Shown here: in pieces, positions 2,607 through 32,868 of the stretch
Layout: each line of letters opens with the position of its first letter
Numbering within the stretch: the stretch's first letter is position 1
DNA from: a virus
IMG/VR virus record: IMGVR_UViG_3300044957_000484
Location: 1-34,259 of that record
Direction: 5' to 3' (one strand)
Length of the DNA: 34,259 bases
Notes under the pieces: generated by a model
The model's database searches: none
What the model saw: the letters and a program-made list of their open reading frames with translations, nothing else
What the model was told of the DNA's origin: nothing
Made by a program: the position numbers and the translations under genes

Positions 2607-2759
2607 GCGTCTCCTTTCCTTGAGATAGCACTAAATACAGTTTATTTATGGTTAACGTGTAACCTGTTTTCTGTAGCTTTTCTAATCTTTGAACGCACCG
2701 AGCCTTGCGTCAAGTAAAAATGTTAACTTTTCCTCTAATTGTTTGCTACTTTTAACGAT
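2607..2759. promoter_or_regulatory. Divergent intergenic region between terS and the RusA-like gene
   Basis: About 150 AT-rich bases separate the starts of two genes transcribed away from each other, so promoters for both should lie here. GTTAAC occurs twice (2651-2656 and 2722-2727), a spacing that could reflect regulator sites. I see no convincing -35/-10 pair and do not assign exact promoters. Confidence 0.4.
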
Positions 2760-3239
2760 ATGGACAAAACCATTCTCATTCAATCTTTCCCGTTTCCGCC
2801 TAGCATCAATGAGGCGTATAGGAACGTGCCTAAAGTTGGGCGCGTTAGTTCAGCCGTTTTGAAGGAATACAAGGCGGAGGTTGAGAGATGGCGCCTGGCT
2901 AATTTAACGGGCCTAGAAGCCTATAAGCAAATGATAGCCGCGGAGTGGGGGGAAAGCCCTTCCTTTCAGATCGACGCCTTTCTAGTGTGCAAGCCTGAGC
3001 GCATATGGACGAAGCAGAATAAGCCTAAGCGCTTCGACGTTTCAAACCGTATTAAATGCTTTGAGGACCAATTCTGTCCCCTATTTGGCTTTGACGATAG
3101 AGACGTTTGGTCTATCTCTATGAGCAAGGTTATGGGAGAGCGTGAGTGCGTCATTGTCATGCTCAGTGCAACGGTTCCCCAGACAGCCGTTGAGGTCCTG
3201 GACGTGCTCTCTGTTGGCTCGCCCAAGAAAGTTCAATAG
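2760..3239 (+). CDS. rusA: RusA-like Holliday junction resolvase
   Basis: This 159-aa protein matches the RusA endonuclease layout. It has an N-terminal strand with FPFPPSINEAYRN, a central basic stretch, and the signature region KRFDVSNRIKCFEDQFCPLF followed by GFDDRDVWS. RusA enzymes cut four-way junctions and so trim branched DNA before packaging. The second Asp of the usual D-x-D-N motif is Ser here, while the first Asp and the downstream Asp pair remain. I prefer the ATG at 2760 over an upstream in-frame TTG at 2739; neither has a clear ribosome-binding site. It stands alone on the plus strand, converging with the next gene and overlapping its end by 7 bases. Confidence 0.8.
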   Translation: MDKTILIQSFPFPPSINEAYRNVPKVGRVSSAVLKEYKAEVERWRLANLTGLEAYKQMIAAEWGESPSFQIDAFLVCKPERIWTKQNKPKRFDVSNRIKCFEDQFCPLFGFDDRDVWSISMSKVMGERECVIVMLSATVPQTAVEVLDVLSVGSPKKVQ

Positions 3240-6057: not shown

Positions 6058-6244
6058 ATTTAACCCAGGAATACAAGTCTACTTCGCCCTTGGTATACTT
6101 CTCAATCTTGTAAGCATTGGCAAGGCTTGGCTTTGTCTTTCCAGTCATCCAACTATATACAGCATTTGGAGACACTCCAGCTTCTACTGCAAAGCGGTAA
6201 TGAAGTTTTTTGTTCTTTTTCAAATAAGCGTTTAGCTTTTTCAT
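6056..6244 (-). CDS. Cro-like helix-turn-helix repressor
   Basis: This 62-aa basic protein consists essentially of one helix-turn-helix of the XRE/Cro type. The recognition region is AVEAGVSPNAVYSWMTGKTK (about residues 19-38), followed by PSLANAYKIEKYTKGEVDL. The last part, with the TKGEV turn, is typical of phage Cro and YdaS-like repressors. AAAGGA precedes the ATG. It is divergent from the early plus-strand operon, with only 52 bases between the two starts, and lies directly upstream of the primase gene. I infer that it controls the early promoter in that gap and perhaps the inverted repeats near 3500. It is the only clear DNA-binding regulator in the window, and no CI-type repressor or integrase accompanies it. 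Confidence 0.8.
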   Translation of the reverse strand: MKKLNAYLKKNKKLHYRFAVEAGVSPNAVYSWMTGKTKPSLANAYKIEKYTKGEVDLYSWVK

Positions 6245-6296
6245 TTGATTTTTTCCTTTATTGTTTTATGTTTTTGGGACAGGAGAAAACTTAAGC
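6245..6296. promoter_or_regulatory. Divergent promoter region, early switch
   Basis: Only 52 bases separate the starts of the Cro-like gene (minus) and the first early gene (plus). A TTGATT at 6246-6251 and AT-rich bases near 6262-6270 could form a poor rightward -35/-10 pair, but I cannot fix the boundaries. AGGAG at 6281-6285 is the ribosome-binding site of the plus gene. Confidence 0.4.
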
Positions 6297-7028
6297 ATGA
6301 AAGTTCAATCAACTCAACAAATAAACTCGCACAAAATTAAACTTGCCGTGTATGGGCAATCAGGCGCGGGGAAAACAACCGCTGTTGCTGGCCTTCTCGC
6401 AGCTGGTTATAAACCAATTGTTGCCAGCTTCGAGGGAGGTCTTCTCTCTCTGCATAATCACAATATTCCTTTCATCGACGGAACACGCGACGATAACGAT
6501 ATTGAGATTGCCAAAGAGAGCCGAGCCGAAAGACTAAAGGAAATATTTAAGTTCCTGCGAACGGACGAAGCTAAAAAGCAATATGACACAATTGTTTTAG
6601 ATTCGCTTACTGAAATAAGCCAGTGTCTATATGACAAGCTAAAAATGAAATATCCAGACCGGAAAGACTCTTTGGTTTTGTTCGGCGAACTTGGGCAAGC
6701 GACAAGAGACGTGGTTAAGATCTTTAGAGACCTAGATTACCACGTTGTCTTTACCATTCTAAGCAAGATCGAAAAAGACGACTCAGGCCGAAGGTTTGTA
6801 GGCTTTGACCTAATCGGAGGCATTTCCGATAAACTTCCACAGTTTCTAGATATTGTTACTTACTTAAAAGTAGATAACGACGGCAAGCGCAGTTTTATCT
6901 GCGCACCAACGGACGCAATTCTAGCTAAGGATAGATCCGGCAAGCTAGACGCGGTTGAATATGATTTGGGCACTATGTTCAATAAAATAAACAAAAAAGG
7001 AGAAAATAATAATGTTCGATCTAAGTGA
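6297..7028 (+). CDS. Sak4-like / AAA_24 recombination ATPase
   Basis: This 243-aa RecA-core ATPase has Walker A GQSGAGKTT (residues 20-28) and Walker B TIVLDS (98-103). A later conserved stretch reads GFDLIGGISDKLPQFLD. Such proteins are annotated as phage nucleotide-binding or Sak4 proteins and promote single-strand annealing or strand exchange. The next two genes encode a DUF669 ssDNA-binding protein and a YqaJ exonuclease, the classic partners. I chose the ATG at 6297, with AGGAG upstream, over an in-frame TTG at 6261. It is the first gene of the plus-strand operon and overlaps the next gene by 17 bases. The link to recombination is family knowledge plus context. Confidence 0.8.
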   Translation: MKVQSTQQINSHKIKLAVYGQSGAGKTTAVAGLLAAGYKPIVASFEGGLLSLHNHNIPFIDGTRDDNDIEIAKESRAERLKEIFKFLRTDEAKKQYDTIVLDSLTEISQCLYDKLKMKYPDRKDSLVLFGELGQATRDVVKIFRDLDYHVVFTILSKIEKDDSGRRFVGFDLIGGISDKLPQFLDIVTYLKVDNDGKRSFICAPTDAILAKDRSGKLDAVEYDLGTMFNKINKKGENNNVRSK

Positions 7029-7451: not shown

Positions 7452-8318
7452 ATGAACTGGTTACTAGACGAAGATAAAAACGCTCAAGTACAAAGATCAA
7501 GTGAATGGCATGAATTTCGCCGCAAGCATATTGGAGCAAGCGACGTTCCGGCCATCATGAATGAATGCGACTTTAAAAAGCCGCTAGATTTGTGGCTTGT
7601 AAAAACGAAGCGCAAAGAGCCGTTTGCCGGGAACTTTGCAACTCAACGCGGTATCGACGCCGAACCAGCTATTAGAAAACTATATGAGGAGCTCATGGGC
7701 GTTCCCCTTGAGGCTCCCGTTTTAGAGTTTAAGGAATGGCCAGTTCTTTCCGCCTCCCTGGACGGACTAAATAGAGAGGCTGAGATAGTAGTAGAGTTTA
7801 AGTATCCCAGCGCGGAAAAACATAAACAAGCCGTATTAGGCAAAGTTCCCAAAACATACGCCGCCCAGCTTCAGGCTCAAATGTTAGTTACGGGCTACGA
7901 CACCGCCCACTATGTTTCCTATGATGGCACTGACATTGCCGTTGTTGTTGTTAAAGAGGATAAGGAGTATCAGGCCAGGATTCTGGAAGAGTGTAAGAAG
8001 TTTTGGAACTACGTCGAGACGGATACCGAGCCGCCTAGCGAGTATATTGAGCTAACCGGAGCCGATCTTGAGCTAATGGCGAAAGAATACATTAGCGTTG
8101 TTTCAACTATCAACGAACTAAAAGAAAAGCAGGATGAACTAAAAAAGGCGATACTTGCCAAAACGGAAGCGAGTAAGGCAAAATTTTATGGCTTGCGCTT
8201 GCTCCGCACAAGCCGTAAGGGAGCGGTTGACTATTCTAAAGTGAAAGAGCTCAGCGGAGTTGACTTAGAAGTGTACAGAAAGCCGTCTATCACTGTTGAG
8301 ACTCTAGAGGTTCTATGA
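7452..8318 (+). CDS. YqaJ-type viral recombinase exonuclease
   Basis: This 288-aa protein is a lambda Exo/YqaJ-family 5'-3' exonuclease. The motifs run in order: RSSEWHEFRRKHIGASD (about residues 15-31), a helix with GIDAEPAIR (67-75), SLDG with catalytic D104, the E-x-K pair E115/K117 (VEFKYP), and the Gln-rich helix AAQLQAQM (137-144). It would resect double-stranded ends to give 3' overhangs for the annealing proteins encoded just upstream. The ribosome-binding site is AGGTGGG. Its last bases form an ATGA overlap with a 36-aa gene. Length and motif spacing are normal for the family. Confidence 0.9.
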   Translation: MNWLLDEDKNAQVQRSSEWHEFRRKHIGASDVPAIMNECDFKKPLDLWLVKTKRKEPFAGNFATQRGIDAEPAIRKLYEELMGVPLEAPVLEFKEWPVLSASLDGLNREAEIVVEFKYPSAEKHKQAVLGKVPKTYAAQLQAQMLVTGYDTAHYVSYDGTDIAVVVVKEDKEYQARILEECKKFWNYVETDTEPPSEYIELTGADLELMAKEYISVVSTINELKEKQDELKKAILAKTEASKAKFYGLRLLRTSRKGAVDYSKVKELSGVDLEVYRKPSITVETLEVL

Positions 8319-17875: not shown

Positions 17876-18933
17876 TATTCAACCACCCTGTATCCTTGAG
17901 TTAGTGCTTTTTTAAGATTTTCCTTTGGTATTCTGCCTATTTTACCCTCTGGAGAAACCACCCTTACTGTGTTTTCGAACTCAATTCCAGAAACGCCTAT
18001 TTTACTAAGAACACTTGGAGTTGCTCCATATACACTGAGTTTATTCATAAACTCTTTTCTAAGATTTGCTAGCTTTCTGCGAGCATCAACGTCACTGTCG
18101 CCGGATCTCGGTAACATTTGCAAAAATCTAGCTTCCTCGTCTTGAGTAACAGCACCGCCGGATCTCATCCTTCCAATGTCATCAACTAATTTTGTTGTCG
18201 CCTCATCAATCGGAGAGGAGCTAATAAAAGAGCCAATTCCCCATGTGTCAGGATTTATTCTACCCCTCCGGCCACCTCTATCAAAAGCGGCCTCATAATC
18301 AGTTAGAGACCTAAGCGCATCGGAAAGAGCAGCGACTTTTTCCTTTGAACCTTGAGCAATTCCTCCGTCATCTTTTCCTTTTCCTCCGCCTGCTGCTTTT
18401 TGCTTTTTAACCTTCAAGTTTTCGTTGAACTGCCTGATTTTTTCTTGAAACTCTCTTTCTTTTTGCTCAAGTTCTTTTTCTTTTTGCTCTCTTAATTGCT
18501 GCGCCTTTTGTGACTCAACGCCTAGCTGAGCTCTCTTTATCTCTCCAGTTTGTTCCATCATTGCTTTTCTATATTCAGCCATAATCTCAGCGTTTTTGCG
18601 CCTTGTGGCTTCAGCTTCTAATGTTTTAAGCATAGCGCCTTGATCTAGGGCTCTTTGTCTATTTGCGTTTTGAATTGCTGCAAATTCTTCTCTTGCGTTT
18701 GTTGTGTACCCTGGAGAGGACGAAATTCCGGTAAGAATTTCCATGGGCCTTCTGTTCGCATAGTATCTTGAAAGCGTATCAATACCGCCTCCAGCTAACT
18801 TGATTGCCATGTTAGCCATAGGGTTATTTGATTGCTCTAATGAGCTCAAATATTGCTGCCTTAGTTTTCTTCTAAGAGCGAGATCCTCTAGTGGGTCATC
18901 ATAACTTAGCTCGTTTTGATCTAATTCTTCCAT
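17875..18933 (-). CDS. Internal virion coiled-coil protein
   Basis: This 352-aa protein has a long charged coiled coil (about residues 90-200, rich in Glu, Lys and Gln). A Gly/Lys-rich hinge follows (AAGGGKGKDDGG), then a folded helical domain with DEATTKLVDDIGRM. The short C-terminal motif VVSPEGKIGRIPKENLKKAL ending in GYRVVE occurs at the ends of many phage internal and membrane-piercing proteins. AGGGAGA precedes the ATG. It is the second of three internal-protein genes and its stop overlaps the next start. I infer an ejection or inner-core role. Confidence 0.6.
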   Translation of the reverse strand: MEELDQNELSYDDPLEDLALRRKLRQQYLSSLEQSNNPMANMAIKLAGGGIDTLSRYYANRRPMEILTGISSSPGYTTNAREEFAAIQNANRQRALDQGAMLKTLEAEATRRKNAEIMAEYRKAMMEQTGEIKRAQLGVESQKAQQLREQKEKELEQKEREFQEKIRQFNENLKVKKQKAAGGGKGKDDGGIAQGSKEKVAALSDALRSLTDYEAAFDRGGRRGRINPDTWGIGSFISSSPIDEATTKLVDDIGRMRSGGAVTQDEEARFLQMLPRSGDSDVDARRKLANLRKEFMNKLSVYGATPSVLSKIGVSGIEFENTVRVVSPEGKIGRIPKENLKKALTQGYRVVE

Positions 18934-23303: not shown

Positions 23304-23558
23304 TTAATACTCCTTCATTCCTTTTTTCATCATGGGAATTTTTTCTTCCATGGAATCGTCTTCCATTTCTTCCTCTTCTTCTCCACGCATTTCAAGAATC
23401 ATTTTCTTCTCTTCGGGAGTAACCATCATGGATACAAAGCCCTTGCCTTCTTCCATTTCATCCATTTTGCTCATTTTGCCCATTTTTAGCTTGGAATAAT
23501 CCAGCATAGGCTTTTCTTTTCCCATCATTTTCATGGCCATCATTTTTTTGTTCATCAT
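23304..23558 (-). CDS. Methionine-rich low-complexity protein
   Basis: This 84-aa protein has 21 methionines (25%), and most other residues are Lys and Glu. It has no Cys, His or Trp. It begins MMNKKMMAMKMMGKEKPM; a central stretch has VSMMVTPEEKKMILEMR, then a Glu run and MMKKGMKEY. AGGGGGG lies upstream of the ATG, and the spacing with its neighbours is tight. Small Met-rich proteins occur near tail genes in some marine and environmental phages, but no function is known to me. Metal (copper) binding, oxidation sensing or membrane-surface contact are possible. Confidence 0.65.
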   Translation of the reverse strand: MMNKKMMAMKMMGKEKPMLDYSKLKMGKMSKMDEMEEGKGFVSMMVTPEEKKMILEMRGEEEEEMEDDSMEEKIPMMKKGMKEY

Positions 23559-23572
23559 TTTAACGTTCCCCC

Positions 23573-26813: not shown

Positions 26814-27824
26814 TTAAAGTCCTGTGATTGGTATGGTCACGCAAATAGATAACACGCTTCCTGAAGCTGCAATATTGTTTGCTGTTTCTGCTGCTAGGGT
26901 GTCGGTATTTGTGCCACTAAAACCGTTCGAGTTACTGAGGTTAATAAAAGAGTTACCTCCGTTAATCAAAACAGATCCTCCTTTAAATGAAACAGAGCTA
27001 CCTCCAAGAAAGTAAAATCCGCCTGCTCTTATTGCTGGAACTTTTGTCGAACTAACTGTGCTGCTTGGTAAGGTTATCTGTGCCTGTGTTGCAGTGGTGG
27101 AGCCTGAAGTAAATTTACCTTGAATTTCGTAAGAGTCTCCAATTTGTCTAAACCAAAATGATTGAGTGGAGACTGTACCAAATCCTGTAAACGTCGGAGT
27201 GTATTGACTCCAGCTTGTTATTGTTGCTCCCCCACCGCCTCCAATTACAGCCCCACGGAACTGTACAACGTAAGCCGTTGTTGTTGATTCAGCCACAAGA
27301 ATAGGCTTAGAGATTTGGCCGGAAGTTGTTGGTTCCGTCAAGGTAATGGCACCAGCTGTTGTTGGCGATAGGAAGTAAGTGCCGCCAGCTGTTAGGCCAG
27401 AAAGCCCGGTAATTCTTCCGGTCATCGTCATGGAAAAGCTGTTTGCATTTGGTACAGAGTGGACAACGCCGATCACTTCAGAAGTTGAATCTGCATCCGC
27501 CTTGGCTTTTGCAAAGGTATTTGCGGCGCTCAAGAAAACAACGTCGCCAACTGCAAAGCCGTGTGCTACTTGTGAAACTGTTCTAGTCGTTGCAGAAACC
27601 GAAGGAGTTCCAGAGGTTAATTGGCTCCAGTTTGTGCTCGATCCAGCGTCCTGTTTTAAGTATGCGCTTCCATTTGATTCATTTAAAAGCAAAGAGCCAA
27701 TGCTAGCAGATACGGCCACAGAAGTTGGATCTGTGGTTGAGGATATAATGTCAACCCCACCGTTCAGGCCAAAGATCTTTTTTAGTGCCTTTACTCTTGG
27801 ACCATTAAAAATTGTTGCGCCCAC
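26814..27824 (-). CDS. Tail fibre / adhesin protein
   Basis: This 336-aa all-beta protein starts with a short fibre-attachment region (residues 1-70, with KKIFGLNGGVDIISSTTDP). A repeat-like central part follows, containing VSQVAHGFAVGDVVFLSAA and GLTAGGTYFLSPTTAG, the latter common in phage fibre stalks. The C-terminal domain (about 203-336) starts TSWSQYTPTFTGFGTV and shares layout with the N-terminal domain of the neighbouring 318-aa protein. The start is GTG at 27824 behind AAGGAG. Confidence 0.7.
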   Translation of the reverse strand: MGATIFNGPRVKALKKIFGLNGGVDIISSTTDPTSVAVSASIGSLLLNESNGSAYLKQDAGSSTNWSQLTSGTPSVSATTRTVSQVAHGFAVGDVVFLSAANTFAKAKADADSTSEVIGVVHSVPNANSFSMTMTGRITGLSGLTAGGTYFLSPTTAGAITLTEPTTSGQISKPILVAESTTTAYVVQFRGAVIGGGGGATITSWSQYTPTFTGFGTVSTQSFWFRQIGDSYEIQGKFTSGSTTATQAQITLPSSTVSSTKVPAIRAGGFYFLGGSSVSFKGGSVLINGGNSFINLSNSNGFSGTNTDTLAAETANNIAASGSVLSICVTIPITGL

Positions 27825-27834
27825 AAGTTTCTCC

Positions 27835-29541
27835 TTATCCCATAAAGTTCATCGTTACGTTACCCGACGAAATTGCGGTTGTTGTTAGCGATCTAAGAGA
27901 AATCAACGTACCAGCGGCGATTGAAACATCTACAGTTTCATTTGAACCAGGGCCAACAACGGCAACAAGCGTCGGCGAAGATACTGCGCCAGTGAATATT
28001 CCAAAGAACTCGCCAGTCGTATCGAAAACTTGAATCTTTCTAACGGCGGAGGCAAGGGAAGCGATTACCTGCAACGAGTTTGCAGCGCTTCCAGGAATAT
28101 TTGTTGAACTTGCGTCCAAAAGCGGAGTATCGAAGAAATCAACAGTGCTTAATGCCTTTTCAACCGTTCTAAGAGCTCCACTTGAATCTGTAGAAAACGG
28201 AATATATTCACCGTTTGCCGCAAGAGCAGTTCCCGCATCATTACGCACAGCTAGTGACATTACTCCGACATCGCCCGAAGAATGAGTTGCGCTTTCTGCC
28301 TTACCGAGGCTAGTTGCGCTAGTGCCAGGAACTATTGAAAGAACATCAACGTCTCCTATATTATTCGTTCCAGCGGGCAAGGAAGCAGTAACGGCGACCT
28401 CAAGTTGATTTGCCGCTGTGACATTAGCTAAGTCTACACCGTCGCCAATGCGGATTGAGTCGGTTGTATGGGATCTCGCAGGTTGAGAGAGAACATCAAC
28501 GTCACCGATATTGTTGGTTCCCGATGGGAGTGCCGCCGTTACTGCAACTTCGAGTTGGTTCGCCGCCGTTACGTTTGCCAGGTCCGTACCGTCTCCGATG
28601 CGGATAGAATCGACCGTATGCGACCTTGCTGGCTGAGATAGAACGTCAACGTCCCCAATATTGTTTGTTCCGGCCGGAAGAGCCGCAGTCACGGCAACTT
28701 CAAGCTGATTTGAAGCCGTAACGTTTGCGATCTCTACTCCGTCGCCTATTCTAATAGAATCCGTTGTATGAGATCTTGCTGGTTGAGTAAGCACATCAAC
28801 CTGGAGCTCTCCGGCAACGTCCGTTTTAATAACTTGCACGTTTGTACCGTCAAAACCGGAAACAACCTTTGTGAGTGCTGGAAGAGCTCCGCCATCCGCG
28901 GCTGTTGCAACTTCTGTTGCCGCTGTGCTAGTAACTCGCAACTCTCCAGAGGAGTTAACGGAAAACGGGATATATTCCCCATCCGCAGCCATGAGTGACC
29001 CGGCATCGTTACGAACTGCAAGGCACATAATTCCGGTGTCGCCAGAGGAATGAGTAGCGCTCTCGGCTTTTCCTAAGTTTGTGGCGCCGGTTCCTGGAAC
29101 AACGCTTAATACATCTACATCGCCTATGTTATTGGTTCCAGCTGGAAGAGCAGCAGTAACAGCCACCTCCATTTGGTTTGCCGCGGTAATGCTAACTGTC
29201 TCTGTTCCATCTCCTATTCTTACTGAATCGGGATTTGCTCCTGAATGGCTAAGCTGAACCTCTAGATTGCTGGCTGTAATTGTAACGGCGCCGGAGGCGT
29301 CAATCAGCTTTACGGGAAGCGGTCGGTTGTTTGCTGGTGTTGTTGTATCTTCTGTTACGACTTGATCTGAGCCGTTCCTTGTAAACTTTAATGGACCAAC
29401 GGCAACAGGCGCAAGCGAATCGTTTTGAATGAAAACGTCTAAACACGCATGATCTTCACCTGAAACCGTCTTTACAGTTCCAGTTGCAATAGGCCTTTGG
29501 TCATCCTTCTTTAGGTTTGGAAAATAGATAGTGTTTGCCAT
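27835..29541 (-). CDS. Repeat-containing virion fibre or decoration protein
   Basis: This 568-aa beta-rich protein is built from repeats. Four copies of a unit with SIRIGDG and QLEVAVTAALPAGTNNIGDV are present; three stand in tandem at an exact 50-residue period. A second unit (LGKAESATHSSGD, then LAVRNDAG and GEYIPFS) occurs twice, near each end of the repeat region. The last 100 residues form a separate beta domain. Such repeats form extended trimeric stalks or head fibres. GGGAG precedes the ATG, and a hairpin region lies upstream. The receptor or structural role is not determined. Confidence 0.7.
   Translation of the reverse strand: MANTIYFPNLKKDDQRPIATGTVKTVSGEDHACLDVFIQNDSLAPVAVGPLKFTRNGSDQVVTEDTTTPANNRPLPVKLIDASGAVTITASNLEVQLSHSGANPDSVRIGDGTETVSITAANQMEVAVTAALPAGTNNIGDVDVLSVVPGTGATNLGKAESATHSSGDTGIMCLAVRNDAGSLMAADGEYIPFSVNSSGELRVTSTAATEVATAADGGALPALTKVVSGFDGTNVQVIKTDVAGELQVDVLTQPARSHTTDSIRIGDGVEIANVTASNQLEVAVTAALPAGTNNIGDVDVLSQPARSHTVDSIRIGDGTDLANVTAANQLEVAVTAALPSGTNNIGDVDVLSQPARSHTTDSIRIGDGVDLANVTAANQLEVAVTASLPAGTNNIGDVDVLSIVPGTSATSLGKAESATHSSGDVGVMSLAVRNDAGTALAANGEYIPFSTDSSGALRTVEKALSTVDFFDTPLLDASSTNIPGSAANSLQVIASLASAVRKIQVFDTTGEFFGIFTGAVSSPTLVAVVGPGSNETVDVSIAAGTLISLRSLTTTAISSGNVTMNFMG
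28341..28790 (-). repeat. Three tandem 150-bp coding repeats
   Basis: Units at 28341-28490, 28491-28640 and 28641-28790 each encode the same 50-residue module. Each begins on the plus strand with GAACATCAACGTC or GAACGTCAACGTC. The protein units are about 92% identical between the first two by hand count, while the DNA is only about 71% identical. Confidence 0.8.
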
Positions 29542-30195: not shown

Positions 30196-30860
30196 GCCAC
30201 CTTACCTAAAAATAAATTACAATAAACAGTTGTGGCGGTGCTACCTTGCGCCATCTTGAACTTCATTTCTACAAAAAAACCAGATTTGATATTACCATAA
30301 TATCCCATTAAGTTTTGCTCGACCTCTATTTCTCCACCAACTTGTGGAGATGGCCAAAAGTACCAGCCTGAGTTTTCGCTATCTGCATCAACATCATGAT
30401 AAGTTCCCAGTACAGTTTCCGCGCCGTAACCAGCTATATTATCCACATCAACAACGTTAATCTCCGTTACAGCGTCACCAAAAGTAAATACGTCGGTAAA
30501 AGCATAACCCCCAGCTATATACCTAGAATCTTGACCTACAATCCCTGGCACCCTTATCCGAATTACGGCCTCGCCATTTTGGTTAATGATTGCTTTAGCT
30601 TTAGCAATTTGAAGTCTAATATCTTCGCGCTCGAACTGTGTGCGGGCATTATCTGTAACGATATTACCTATGCTATTCTTGTAGTTGTTTTCAAAGTCTA
30701 GCTGATCTGCTCCGCTATCTTTATGCATTTTACAAACAACAGTAAACTGATTTTGTTTTGCATAAATAAAATAGTGATTTGCTAATTCAAAATAAAGTAT
30801 GCTCCACTGAACTCCGCCTAGGACCTGATTTTTAAACTCCGCCCATGGTAATTCGATCAT
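30192..30860 (-). CDS. Putative virion/tail protein
   Basis: I start this 222-aa protein at the ATG at 30860, which overlaps the preceding stop as ATGA and has GGAGG seven bases upstream; an in-frame GTG or ATG further up is rejected. The N-terminal 60 residues (MIELPWAEFKNQVLGGVQWS) with a D-Q-L-D-F-E-N-N-Y-K segment are a pattern I associate with small tail or baseplate proteins of many phages. The rest is beta-rich with a Trp-Tyr-Phe-Trp stretch (NSGWYFWPSPQ). Function unassigned. Confidence 0.6.
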   Translation of the reverse strand: MIELPWAEFKNQVLGGVQWSILYFELANHYFIYAKQNQFTVVCKMHKDSGADQLDFENNYKNSIGNIVTDNARTQFEREDIRLQIAKAKAIINQNGEAVIRIRVPGIVGQDSRYIAGGYAFTDVFTFGDAVTEINVVDVDNIAGYGAETVLGTYHDVDADSENSGWYFWPSPQVGGEIEVEQNLMGYYGNIKSGFFVEMKFKMAQGSTATTVYCNLFLGKVA

Positions 30861-31789
30861 GTTGTGGCCTCCGTGAAAACACAAATCACGTCAAACGTTC
30901 CAGACGTGGAGTTGACCGTTTGCTTTAACGTAAGCCCCTCGCCCGCTCTAATTGTAATCGCTTTTTCATTCATTTGCGGCGCATATAGCGGAATAAGATT
31001 TTGCAATCCATGGTCTGCGCTATCGGCGTCTGCTGCACCAGTCGACCATTCATCGCTACCCCATATCCATCTATAAAGCGCGGGTGTTGCCTCACCAGCT
31101 ATTGTTGCTCCAGTTCTTGCCGTTACATTTACGCTTAGCGTGTCAGCTGTGTCATGGGTTTGTGGAGTGATTGAGGTTCCCACAGAGTGGCCGGTCATTC
31201 TAAACAAGCTAAAATCTGCATTGATACCAGTTACAGCGGCGTTTTGTGTGTTGATTAAATAAATCTTTTGTATGCGAACGACAACGCCAGAGCCACCAGC
31301 ATTAAGGAGCGAAAACATTGATTTGTTGTTTCCCAAAGCAGCCGCTTGTGCTCTTGCTACAAATGTTTTTCTTGTGTCTGCACCAACTGCGATAGAGGAA
31401 ACGCTAACAGGAATTGTCGATTGATCGCTTGCCATTGTAACCGGCATTGAGTTTGCCATTGTCGTTTGACCTAATGCTGCTGGAATACCAGCGTCAATAG
31501 ATGCGAGAGAGGCATTTGTTGTTGCTTGATTTGCAGCGGTAGCTGCACCAGTTGGTAATGGCAAACTTGCAGCTGAAATTGGTACAGCAGATTGATTTGA
31601 TGCAATTACAACCGGCTGGGAAGCAGCCATAGTCGTTTGGCCCAAGGGCGGCGTCTTTGTGTCAATGGACGATAAAGAAGTATTGCCAGTTGTTTGTAGC
31701 GCTGAAGTTGATGCGCCAGTAGGTAATGGCAAGGAAGCGGCGCTTATCGCCTGCGTGCCATCCGCTGAATCTAAGTCATTAACTGCCAC
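30857..31789 (-). CDS. Fibre protein with repeats
   Basis: This 310-aa protein has an N-terminal half of two repeats: ISAASLPLPTGA, then a helix with SLSSID or SLASID, then LGQTTMA and a strand ending SNQSAVP or SDQSTIP. The PLPTGA...LGQTTMANSMPV pattern is common in phage head or tail fibres and probably forms an elongated trimer. Residues about 130-310 form a globular beta domain with an unusual Trp pair (YRWIWGSDEWS). The start is GTG at 31789 behind AGAGGA, overlapping the previous gene. Confidence 0.65.
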   Translation of the reverse strand: MAVNDLDSADGTQAISAASLPLPTGASTSALQTTGNTSLSSIDTKTPPLGQTTMAASQPVVIASNQSAVPISAASLPLPTGAATAANQATTNASLASIDAGIPAALGQTTMANSMPVTMASDQSTIPVSVSSIAVGADTRKTFVARAQAAALGNNKSMFSLLNAGGSGVVVRIQKIYLINTQNAAVTGINADFSLFRMTGHSVGTSITPQTHDTADTLSVNVTARTGATIAGEATPALYRWIWGSDEWSTGAADADSADHGLQNLIPLYAPQMNEKAITIRAGEGLTLKQTVNSTSGTFDVICVFTEATT

Positions 31790-32028: not shown

Positions 32029-32868
32029 TTACGCAGCGTATTCAGCCACTCGAACGTCGGTAGAACCGGCGCCGGTAACATAGAAGATTGCCGCACCGTT
32101 ATCTAGGGCCTGCTCGTAAGAAGAACCTTTTGGGATCTTCAATCCGTTTGCAGAGGTAACTCCAGTAACGTGGCGAATATAAAGGTCTTGGCTACCCAAA
32201 TTTTGGATTTCTACCCGGAGGCGATTTGCAAAACTTGTGATAGAACCTTCGGTAGTATTTGCAGTAAAATTGCTTACTTGCCAGCTGCTATAGCCAGACT
32301 CAGTAAACTGTGCGTTGAGAGATCCATCTGCGTTAATAGCTAGTTGATCCCCAGCGCCATCAAACAGACCCACCTTTAACGCGCCCAAAGAGTTAACTTG
32401 GAGCGGTGCATAGTCACCATCCGCGCTTACAAGCGAAGTATTGGCATCCCTACGCACTGATAAAATTTGAACCCCAATATCGGCCGACACATGGGCGGAA
32501 TCTTCGGCATAAAATCCAGCCAAAGTACCGTCAACAGTGATGGATCCACCGCCGTCGCCGATAACCCATGGAGAGGTTGACTGAGTAACAGCAACGGTTC
32601 CAGTGATTGACACGGAGCCATCAACAGTAATTGAGTTACCGCCGTCCTGAATATTTACAGCGCTCGCGCCACCCGGATTCTGCACCGTGATCGACTCAAG
32701 AGCAGCAAGAGACGCCGCACCAAGTTCCACTGTACCGTCAACAGTTAACGACCCGCCGTTATCTGTTACCGCAATGCTACCGTCCGCCGCTATTGCAAGA
32801 GCATCTCCCGCGCTATCAATAATAGCAATGCTATGATTTAAGTGACTAATTGAATCAATAGTTATCAT
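32029..32868 (-). CDS. Fibre protein with beta repeats
   Basis: This 279-aa protein has a repeated beta pattern (GSIAVTDNGGSLTVDGTVEL, GGNSITVDGSVSITGTVAV, GGSITVDGTLAG) often seen in phage fibres and decoration proteins. The middle has a stretch similar to the 568-aa protein (ILSVRRDANTSLVSADGDYA). The C-terminal 75 residues (RLRVEIQNLGSQDLYIRHVT...) form a small beta domain that recurs in two neighbours. AGGGGG precedes the ATG. Confidence 0.65.
   Translation of the reverse strand: MITIDSISHLNHSIAIIDSAGDALAIAADGSIAVTDNGGSLTVDGTVELGAASLAALESITVQNPGGASAVNIQDGGNSITVDGSVSITGTVAVTQSTSPWVIGDGGGSITVDGTLAGFYAEDSAHVSADIGVQILSVRRDANTSLVSADGDYAPLQVNSLGALKVGLFDGAGDQLAINADGSLNAQFTESGYSSWQVSNFTANTTEGSITSFANRLRVEIQNLGSQDLYIRHVTGVTSANGLKIPKGSSYEQALDNGAAIFYVTGAGSTDVRVAEYAA

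Follow-up and report, generated by a model that had tools for sequence, protein, structure and literature searches.

The 34,259-base virus record IMGVR_UViG_3300044957_000484, analysed over its whole length and called the window here, carries a gene in which consecutive 150-bp units encode almost the same 50 residues in clearly different DNA. We asked how such units come to keep their protein and lose their DNA likeness. A sequence-only reading of the locus had offered two answers, namely old repeats under strong protein constraint with saturated synonymous change, or selection that prevents recombination between the units by the phage's own recombinase.

Layout of the repeat gene and divergence of its units

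The following parts of the gene were distinguished:

27835-29541, minus strand: repeat-protein gene, 568 aa with an ATG start (ORF list and 257 tblastn relatives)
29104-29253, minus strand: fourth, more diverged unit U0 at residues 97-146 (66-68% of residues shared with U1-U3)
28930-29118, minus strand: copy of the second, 63-aa repeat that follows U0, beginning with VDVLSVVPGT
28636-28785, minus strand: repeat unit U1, residues 253-302 (unit comparison)
28486-28635, minus strand: repeat unit U2, residues 303-352 (unit comparison)
28336-28485, minus strand: repeat unit U3, residues 353-402 (unit comparison)
28162-28350, minus strand: copy of the second, 63-aa repeat that follows U3, beginning with VDVLSIVPGT
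27838-28104, minus strand: C-terminal beta domain, about residues 480-568 (mean pLDDT 83-92 per ten-residue block from residue 481)

Three tandem 150-bp units are present as described earlier; the array, previously placed at 28341-28790, spans 28336-28785 (residues 253-402) and had thus been set 5 bases off. It was recovered independently by TRF (period 150, 3.1 copies, 73% matches), and this detection together with the unit identities rules out a chance likeness. Within the 568-aa protein, internal repeats occur at offsets of 50, 100, 156, 206 and 256 residues. The copies of the 63-aa block, whose coordinates were derived from residue numbers, overlap the last five residues of U0 and of U3, respectively. 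As this block is itself repeated after U0 and U3, the gene contains duplications at two scales.

Comparison of the units revealed a kept protein and a diverged DNA. U3 and U2 share 71.3% of bases and 92% of residues, which reproduces the hand count of about 71% and 92% for the first two units; the corresponding values are 74.0% and 88% for U1/U2 and 74.7% and 92% for U1/U3. Nei-Gojobori counts for U3/U2, U1/U2 and U1/U3 gave pS values of 0.90, 0.73 and 0.80 and pN values of 0.065, 0.089 and 0.059, and dS was infinite for two of the three pairs and 2.7 for U1/U2. Each pair differs at 31-35 third codon positions, 5-6 first positions and 0-2 second positions. The earlier claim of a conserved protein with diverged synonymous sites is therefore borne out for U1-U3 (pS 0.73-0.90 versus pN 0.06-0.09), and the dN/dS-type check that it had proposed shows unequal divergence, with synonymous change far above nonsynonymous change. 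Residue conservation with saturated synonymous sites is thus a property of the window gene. The distant unit U0 shares 57-60% of bases with U1-U3, and the two 63-aa block copies have 48 of 63 residues in common, with 33 of those 48 codons differing and 63% of bases equal.

Codon choice in the units and the nearest relative

Codon choice was compared with a simulation in which the protein was held fixed and codons were drawn independently from the usage of the phage or of the gene. Summed over the three U1-U3 pairs, 87 codon differences were observed, and 89.3 ± 5.5 (phage codon usage) or 86.1 ± 5.8 (the gene's own usage) were expected. The longest exact in-register match was 14 bases (simulated mean, 13.7-14.5), and the summed longest exact runs amounted to 30 (simulated, 33.2-34.9). 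Neither this simulation nor the 88 ORFs described below showed an excess of codon differences, or a shortening of exact matches, relative to random synonymous choice. The synonymous sites of U1-U3 are saturated and over-divergence is absent, with all shared codon memory lost.

The nearest relative found in the first IMG/VR scan (257 tblastn relatives among stretches matching a peptide pattern, 78 loci kept) was phage L002, which at positions 6124-7023 encodes six 50-aa units belonging to two subtypes that are interleaved (the ANVTAANQLEVAVTA and LSITAAGEALVSLTT types). Its third and fourth units share 92-96% of residues and 69-73% of bases with U2 and U3, the pair of U2 and the third unit having 96% and 69%, respectively. 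Over all pairs of U1-U3 with the six units, residue identity ranges from 52 to 96% and base identity from 51 to 73%; in part of the L002 array, conservation therefore does not exceed that of the gene elsewhere, and since the second subtype reaches only 52-72% residue identity to U1-U3, constraint on the units is not uniform. The best-matching units (U2-U3 versus the third and fourth) are 94% identical, compared to 58% for the block before the repeats and 49% for the C-terminal domain, and have changed far less in protein than that domain. Between the window and L002, pS is 0.77-0.85 in the paired units, the C-terminal domain and the pre-repeat block alike, so that, judged by synonymous sites, the paired units are as old as the divergence of these phages. 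Only two or three shared residues suggest that U2 and U3 are orthologous by position to the third and fourth units. Besides the window and L002, a strict pattern picked up the 50-aa unit only in a single unit of L007/L213; a later scan added weaker matches with at most 62% identity over most of the unit.

Copies of the core motif in 88 ORFs

A scan with the 10-residue pattern GTNNIGDVDV yielded at least 120 stretches in viral contigs and seven in GTDB genomes. From 275 loci, including the window's own (L001) and the seven from GTDB, removal of duplicates left 167 ORFs with 472 copies of the LPAGTNNIGDVDV core. An ORF counted as a duplicate, and was dropped, when it had a 99-base block around a copy in common with one listed before it; copies with fewer than 9 and pairs with fewer than 11 of 13 identical residues were dropped too. 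The resulting 88 ORFs, nearly all from viral contigs, each hold at least one pair with at least 11 of 13 residues identical. Because this sample was gathered by the motif itself, conservation of the motif across phages is partly so by construction.

With position-specific codon bias included, the codon difference within genes had a median of 0.978 and a mean of 0.931 of the random value in the 88 ORFs, compared to 0.971 and 0.976 between phages, where GC-matched other ORFs served as the control. No difference between within-gene and between-phage copies was detected (paired Wilcoxon p = 0.43, 44 of 88 positive; median difference within minus between 0.003, mean -0.044), and the lower within-gene mean is owed to a minority of arrays. 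Without the position-specific term, the pooled values were 0.530 observed versus 0.592 expected within genes and 0.559 versus 0.609 between phages. Exact runs of at least 20 of the 39 bases were commoner within genes than between phages (0.086 versus 0.030; 0.067 within genes once L063 and L038 are left out). The spacing of the copies had no clear effect, with 0.90, 0.85, 0.88, 0.93 and 0.92 of expectation from the nearest to the farthest class. Even where all 13 residues are identical, 169 of 211 pairs differ in at least five codons.

Concerted evolution by gene conversion or unequal crossing-over was not supported, as units are not more alike within a genome, either in the comparison of the window with L002 or in the 88 ORFs; the exceptions are single arrays such as L063 and L038. 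We also dropped the idea that the pattern is unique to the LPAGTNNIGDVDV family. In a control of other internally repetitive ORFs (354 loci; those beyond the 275 entered only this control), 13 of 24 reached a ratio of at least 0.75, compared to 91 of 113 family ORFs, and the pattern is therefore not peculiar to this motif. In our judgement, based on composition, at least three of the low-ratio other ORFs look like wrong reading frames. A different repeat, SPVSVVGGFTDWVQIS, in ORFs of L168, L034 and L106 is codon-saturated in a similar way (ratios 0.72-0.93).

Recent copies were also found. At least one pair with no more than two codon differences occurs in 12 of the 88 ORFs (39 of 589 pairs), and L063 is the sole six-copy array seen with DNA-identical cores. 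Among the seven GTDB matches, only that of Calothrix sp. NIES-4101 is titled complete; its element is the same as L059, and all 13 core copies were found in the genome, saturated ones together with three recent ones (residues 257, 318 and 336; 1-2 of 13 codons differ). The identical cores of L063 and the recent Calothrix copies indicate that repeat births continue.

Taken together, the unit, simulation, 88-ORF and L002 comparisons back the first answer, and we consider it probable that the array is an old repeat set under purifying selection on the protein and at synonymous equilibrium, within a virion protein that is modular and probably rich in beta structure. Duplication would have given rise to the units, probably before the window phage and L002 separated. 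Purifying selection would since have purged most amino acid changes, with synonymous sites drifting to equilibrium until the codons of one unit no longer predicted those of its neighbour. Exact in-register matches have shrunk to 8-14 bases, which would leave hardly any scope for homologous recombination between units, and these would therefore be neither homogenised nor deleted. Saturation and lack of homogenisation are what the units display. The mechanism is ordinary, and the finding is real and widespread.

The second answer, that synonymous differences were favoured because they stop Sak4/RecE recombination from deleting units, is very improbable. Its premise is sound, as both kinds of gene lie in the same genome:

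6261-7028, plus strand: Sak4-like ssDNA annealing protein gene (phrog_124, E 2.6e-36)
7452-8318, plus strand: RecE-like recombination exonuclease gene (phrog_434, E 3.5e-54)

The 14-base limit on exact matches in U1-U3 also agrees with it, but this length is the one simulated under random synonymous choice, which the codon differences do not exceed either. Moreover, copies in one gene differ no more than those of separate phages do, and they share long exact runs somewhat more often. Import of already diverged units from other phages by recombination would fit the L002 units that are 92-96% residue-identical to U2 and U3, as well as the interleaved subtypes; we regard it as unlikely, given that none of the six L002 units qualifies as a donor (none exceeds 73% of bases with U1-U3) and that so few sequences match the strict pattern. 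A stronger candidate, plausible if somewhat short of probable, is survivorship, in which arrays born DNA-identical mostly vanish, through natural recombination or through collapse and breakage in short-read assembly, and old scrambled ones remain. The position of the L063 array at a contig end and the mixture of recent and saturated copies in the finished Calothrix genome speak for it, and metagenome short-read assemblies may hide or lose DNA-identical arrays. Exact repeats in runs of two or three copies spaced by 17-19 residues should, however, be short enough for common assembly k-mers, and only 3 of 61 adjacent pairs in such runs had no more than two codon differences; nor was there a clear excess of low-ratio ORFs at locus ends (3 of 12 versus 14 of 76). 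Survivorship requires no codon-level selection and supplements the reading as old repeats under purifying selection instead of replacing it; identical arrays may be purged passively or fail to survive assembly, and both effects may contribute to the pattern across the family.

Nature of the protein, known systems and genome context

The full-length structure model had a mean pLDDT of 50.0, with high confidence confined to a C-terminal beta domain some 90 residues long; the array modelled alone reached 40.1, with nearly all of it below 50. The alignment for modelling comprised 20 sequences chosen from 79 loci. By eye, each 50-aa unit contains three strand-like stretches (DSIRIGDG, NQLEVAVTA and NNIGDVDVL) about 16-17 residues apart, a recurrence that would suit a beta-solenoid or an intertwined trimeric shaft. 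A beta-rich virion protein is likely, and our best guess is a virion appendage or head decoration. Foldseek against the PDB gave as best match for the full-length model a clostridial enterotoxin C-terminal domain (E 1.7e-4, target TM 0.43), followed by nucleoplasmin-like structures. The best VIA matches were a GH43 enzyme domain and CBM6 (Z 6.7), and a phage cement protein reached Z 6.1; many beta sandwiches lie within 1 of the best Z, so these matches are generic, none stands out and we derive no function from them. The best match in a viral structure library (E 1.0e-6) was discarded as meaningless, with a TM of 0.11 and an rmsd of 67. In sequence searches, the best Pfam match, P2_C, scored 22.6 bits, below the cut-off of 25, NCBIfam matches were far below the curated cut-off, and the PDB contained no match to the repeat protein. 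PHROGs returned phrog_9224 (E 3.3e-9, residues 283-312) and then phrog_31545, both families of unknown function.

In its repeat-rich, variable middle, its conserved C-terminal beta domain and its place in a run of minus-strand late-type genes, the protein resembles the general class of modular phage fibre and decoration proteins; the searches linked it to no characterised fibre family, its Pfam and NCBIfam matches being below cut-off and its PHROGs matches of unknown function. Uncharacterised phage repeat proteins (MW202554.1 and MW202601.1/MW202604.1) have a repeat stretch in common with it at 46-47% identity, in matches that cover only 17-31% of the query. Two of the four matched proteins, in distinct records, are named "glycoprotein repeat domain-containing protein", and in MW202554.1 the repeat-protein gene comes after the portal gene.

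The nearest known case is that of the polyubiquitin genes, the subject of a debate on birth-and-death versus concerted evolution. In these genes, too, strong purifying selection acts on tandem, near-identical protein units that differ at many synonymous sites (PMC10457151). Polyubiquitin copies are reported to be more alike within than between species (PMC10457151), whereas in our 88 ORFs the within-gene and between-phage medians are the same. With its conserved residues and saturated synonymous sites, the window array falls among tandem protein repeats shaped by purifying selection. A broader reading, which we hold to be rather unlikely, is that LPAGTNNIGDVDV with its 50-aa extension is a phage-wide structural module under near-ubiquitin-like constraint, with phage recombinases purging DNA-identical arrays and so leaving mainly codon-scrambled ones; this would act as a lineage-level filter for DNA heterogeneity without codon-level selection. 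In the part of the literature surveyed, we noticed no mention of the window repeat, nor of codon scrambling among repeats of phages. No anti-recombination selection on codons is needed to account for repeats that stay nearly identical in protein while their DNA is scrambled, and the 88 ORFs are a natural data set for measuring how old protein repeats are, how they are born and how far they are homogenised. They also point to a peptide module that is strongly conserved in many uncultured phages.

The genome also encodes terminase, portal- or adaptor-like and primase proteins. By eye, some of the minus-strand genes around the repeat gene have similar repetitive segments, and the neighbours at 30857-31789 and 32029-32868 (both minus strand) contain other repeat modules (LPLPTGA... 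and SITVDG...). In the former, two ungapped 52-residue copies share 26 residues, 16 of which are encoded by different codons. An 84-residue ORF at 23304-23558 (minus strand) is extremely skewed in composition, with 21 Met, 16 Lys and 16 Glu; it had no Pfam match and is accompanied by a 15-bp tandem repeat at 23522-23568. At 2739-3239 (plus strand), a RusA-like endodeoxyribonuclease scored just below the Pfam cut-off (21.9 versus 22.8 bits), and short 21-bp tandem repeats lie inside genes at 26940-27005 and 18439-18489.
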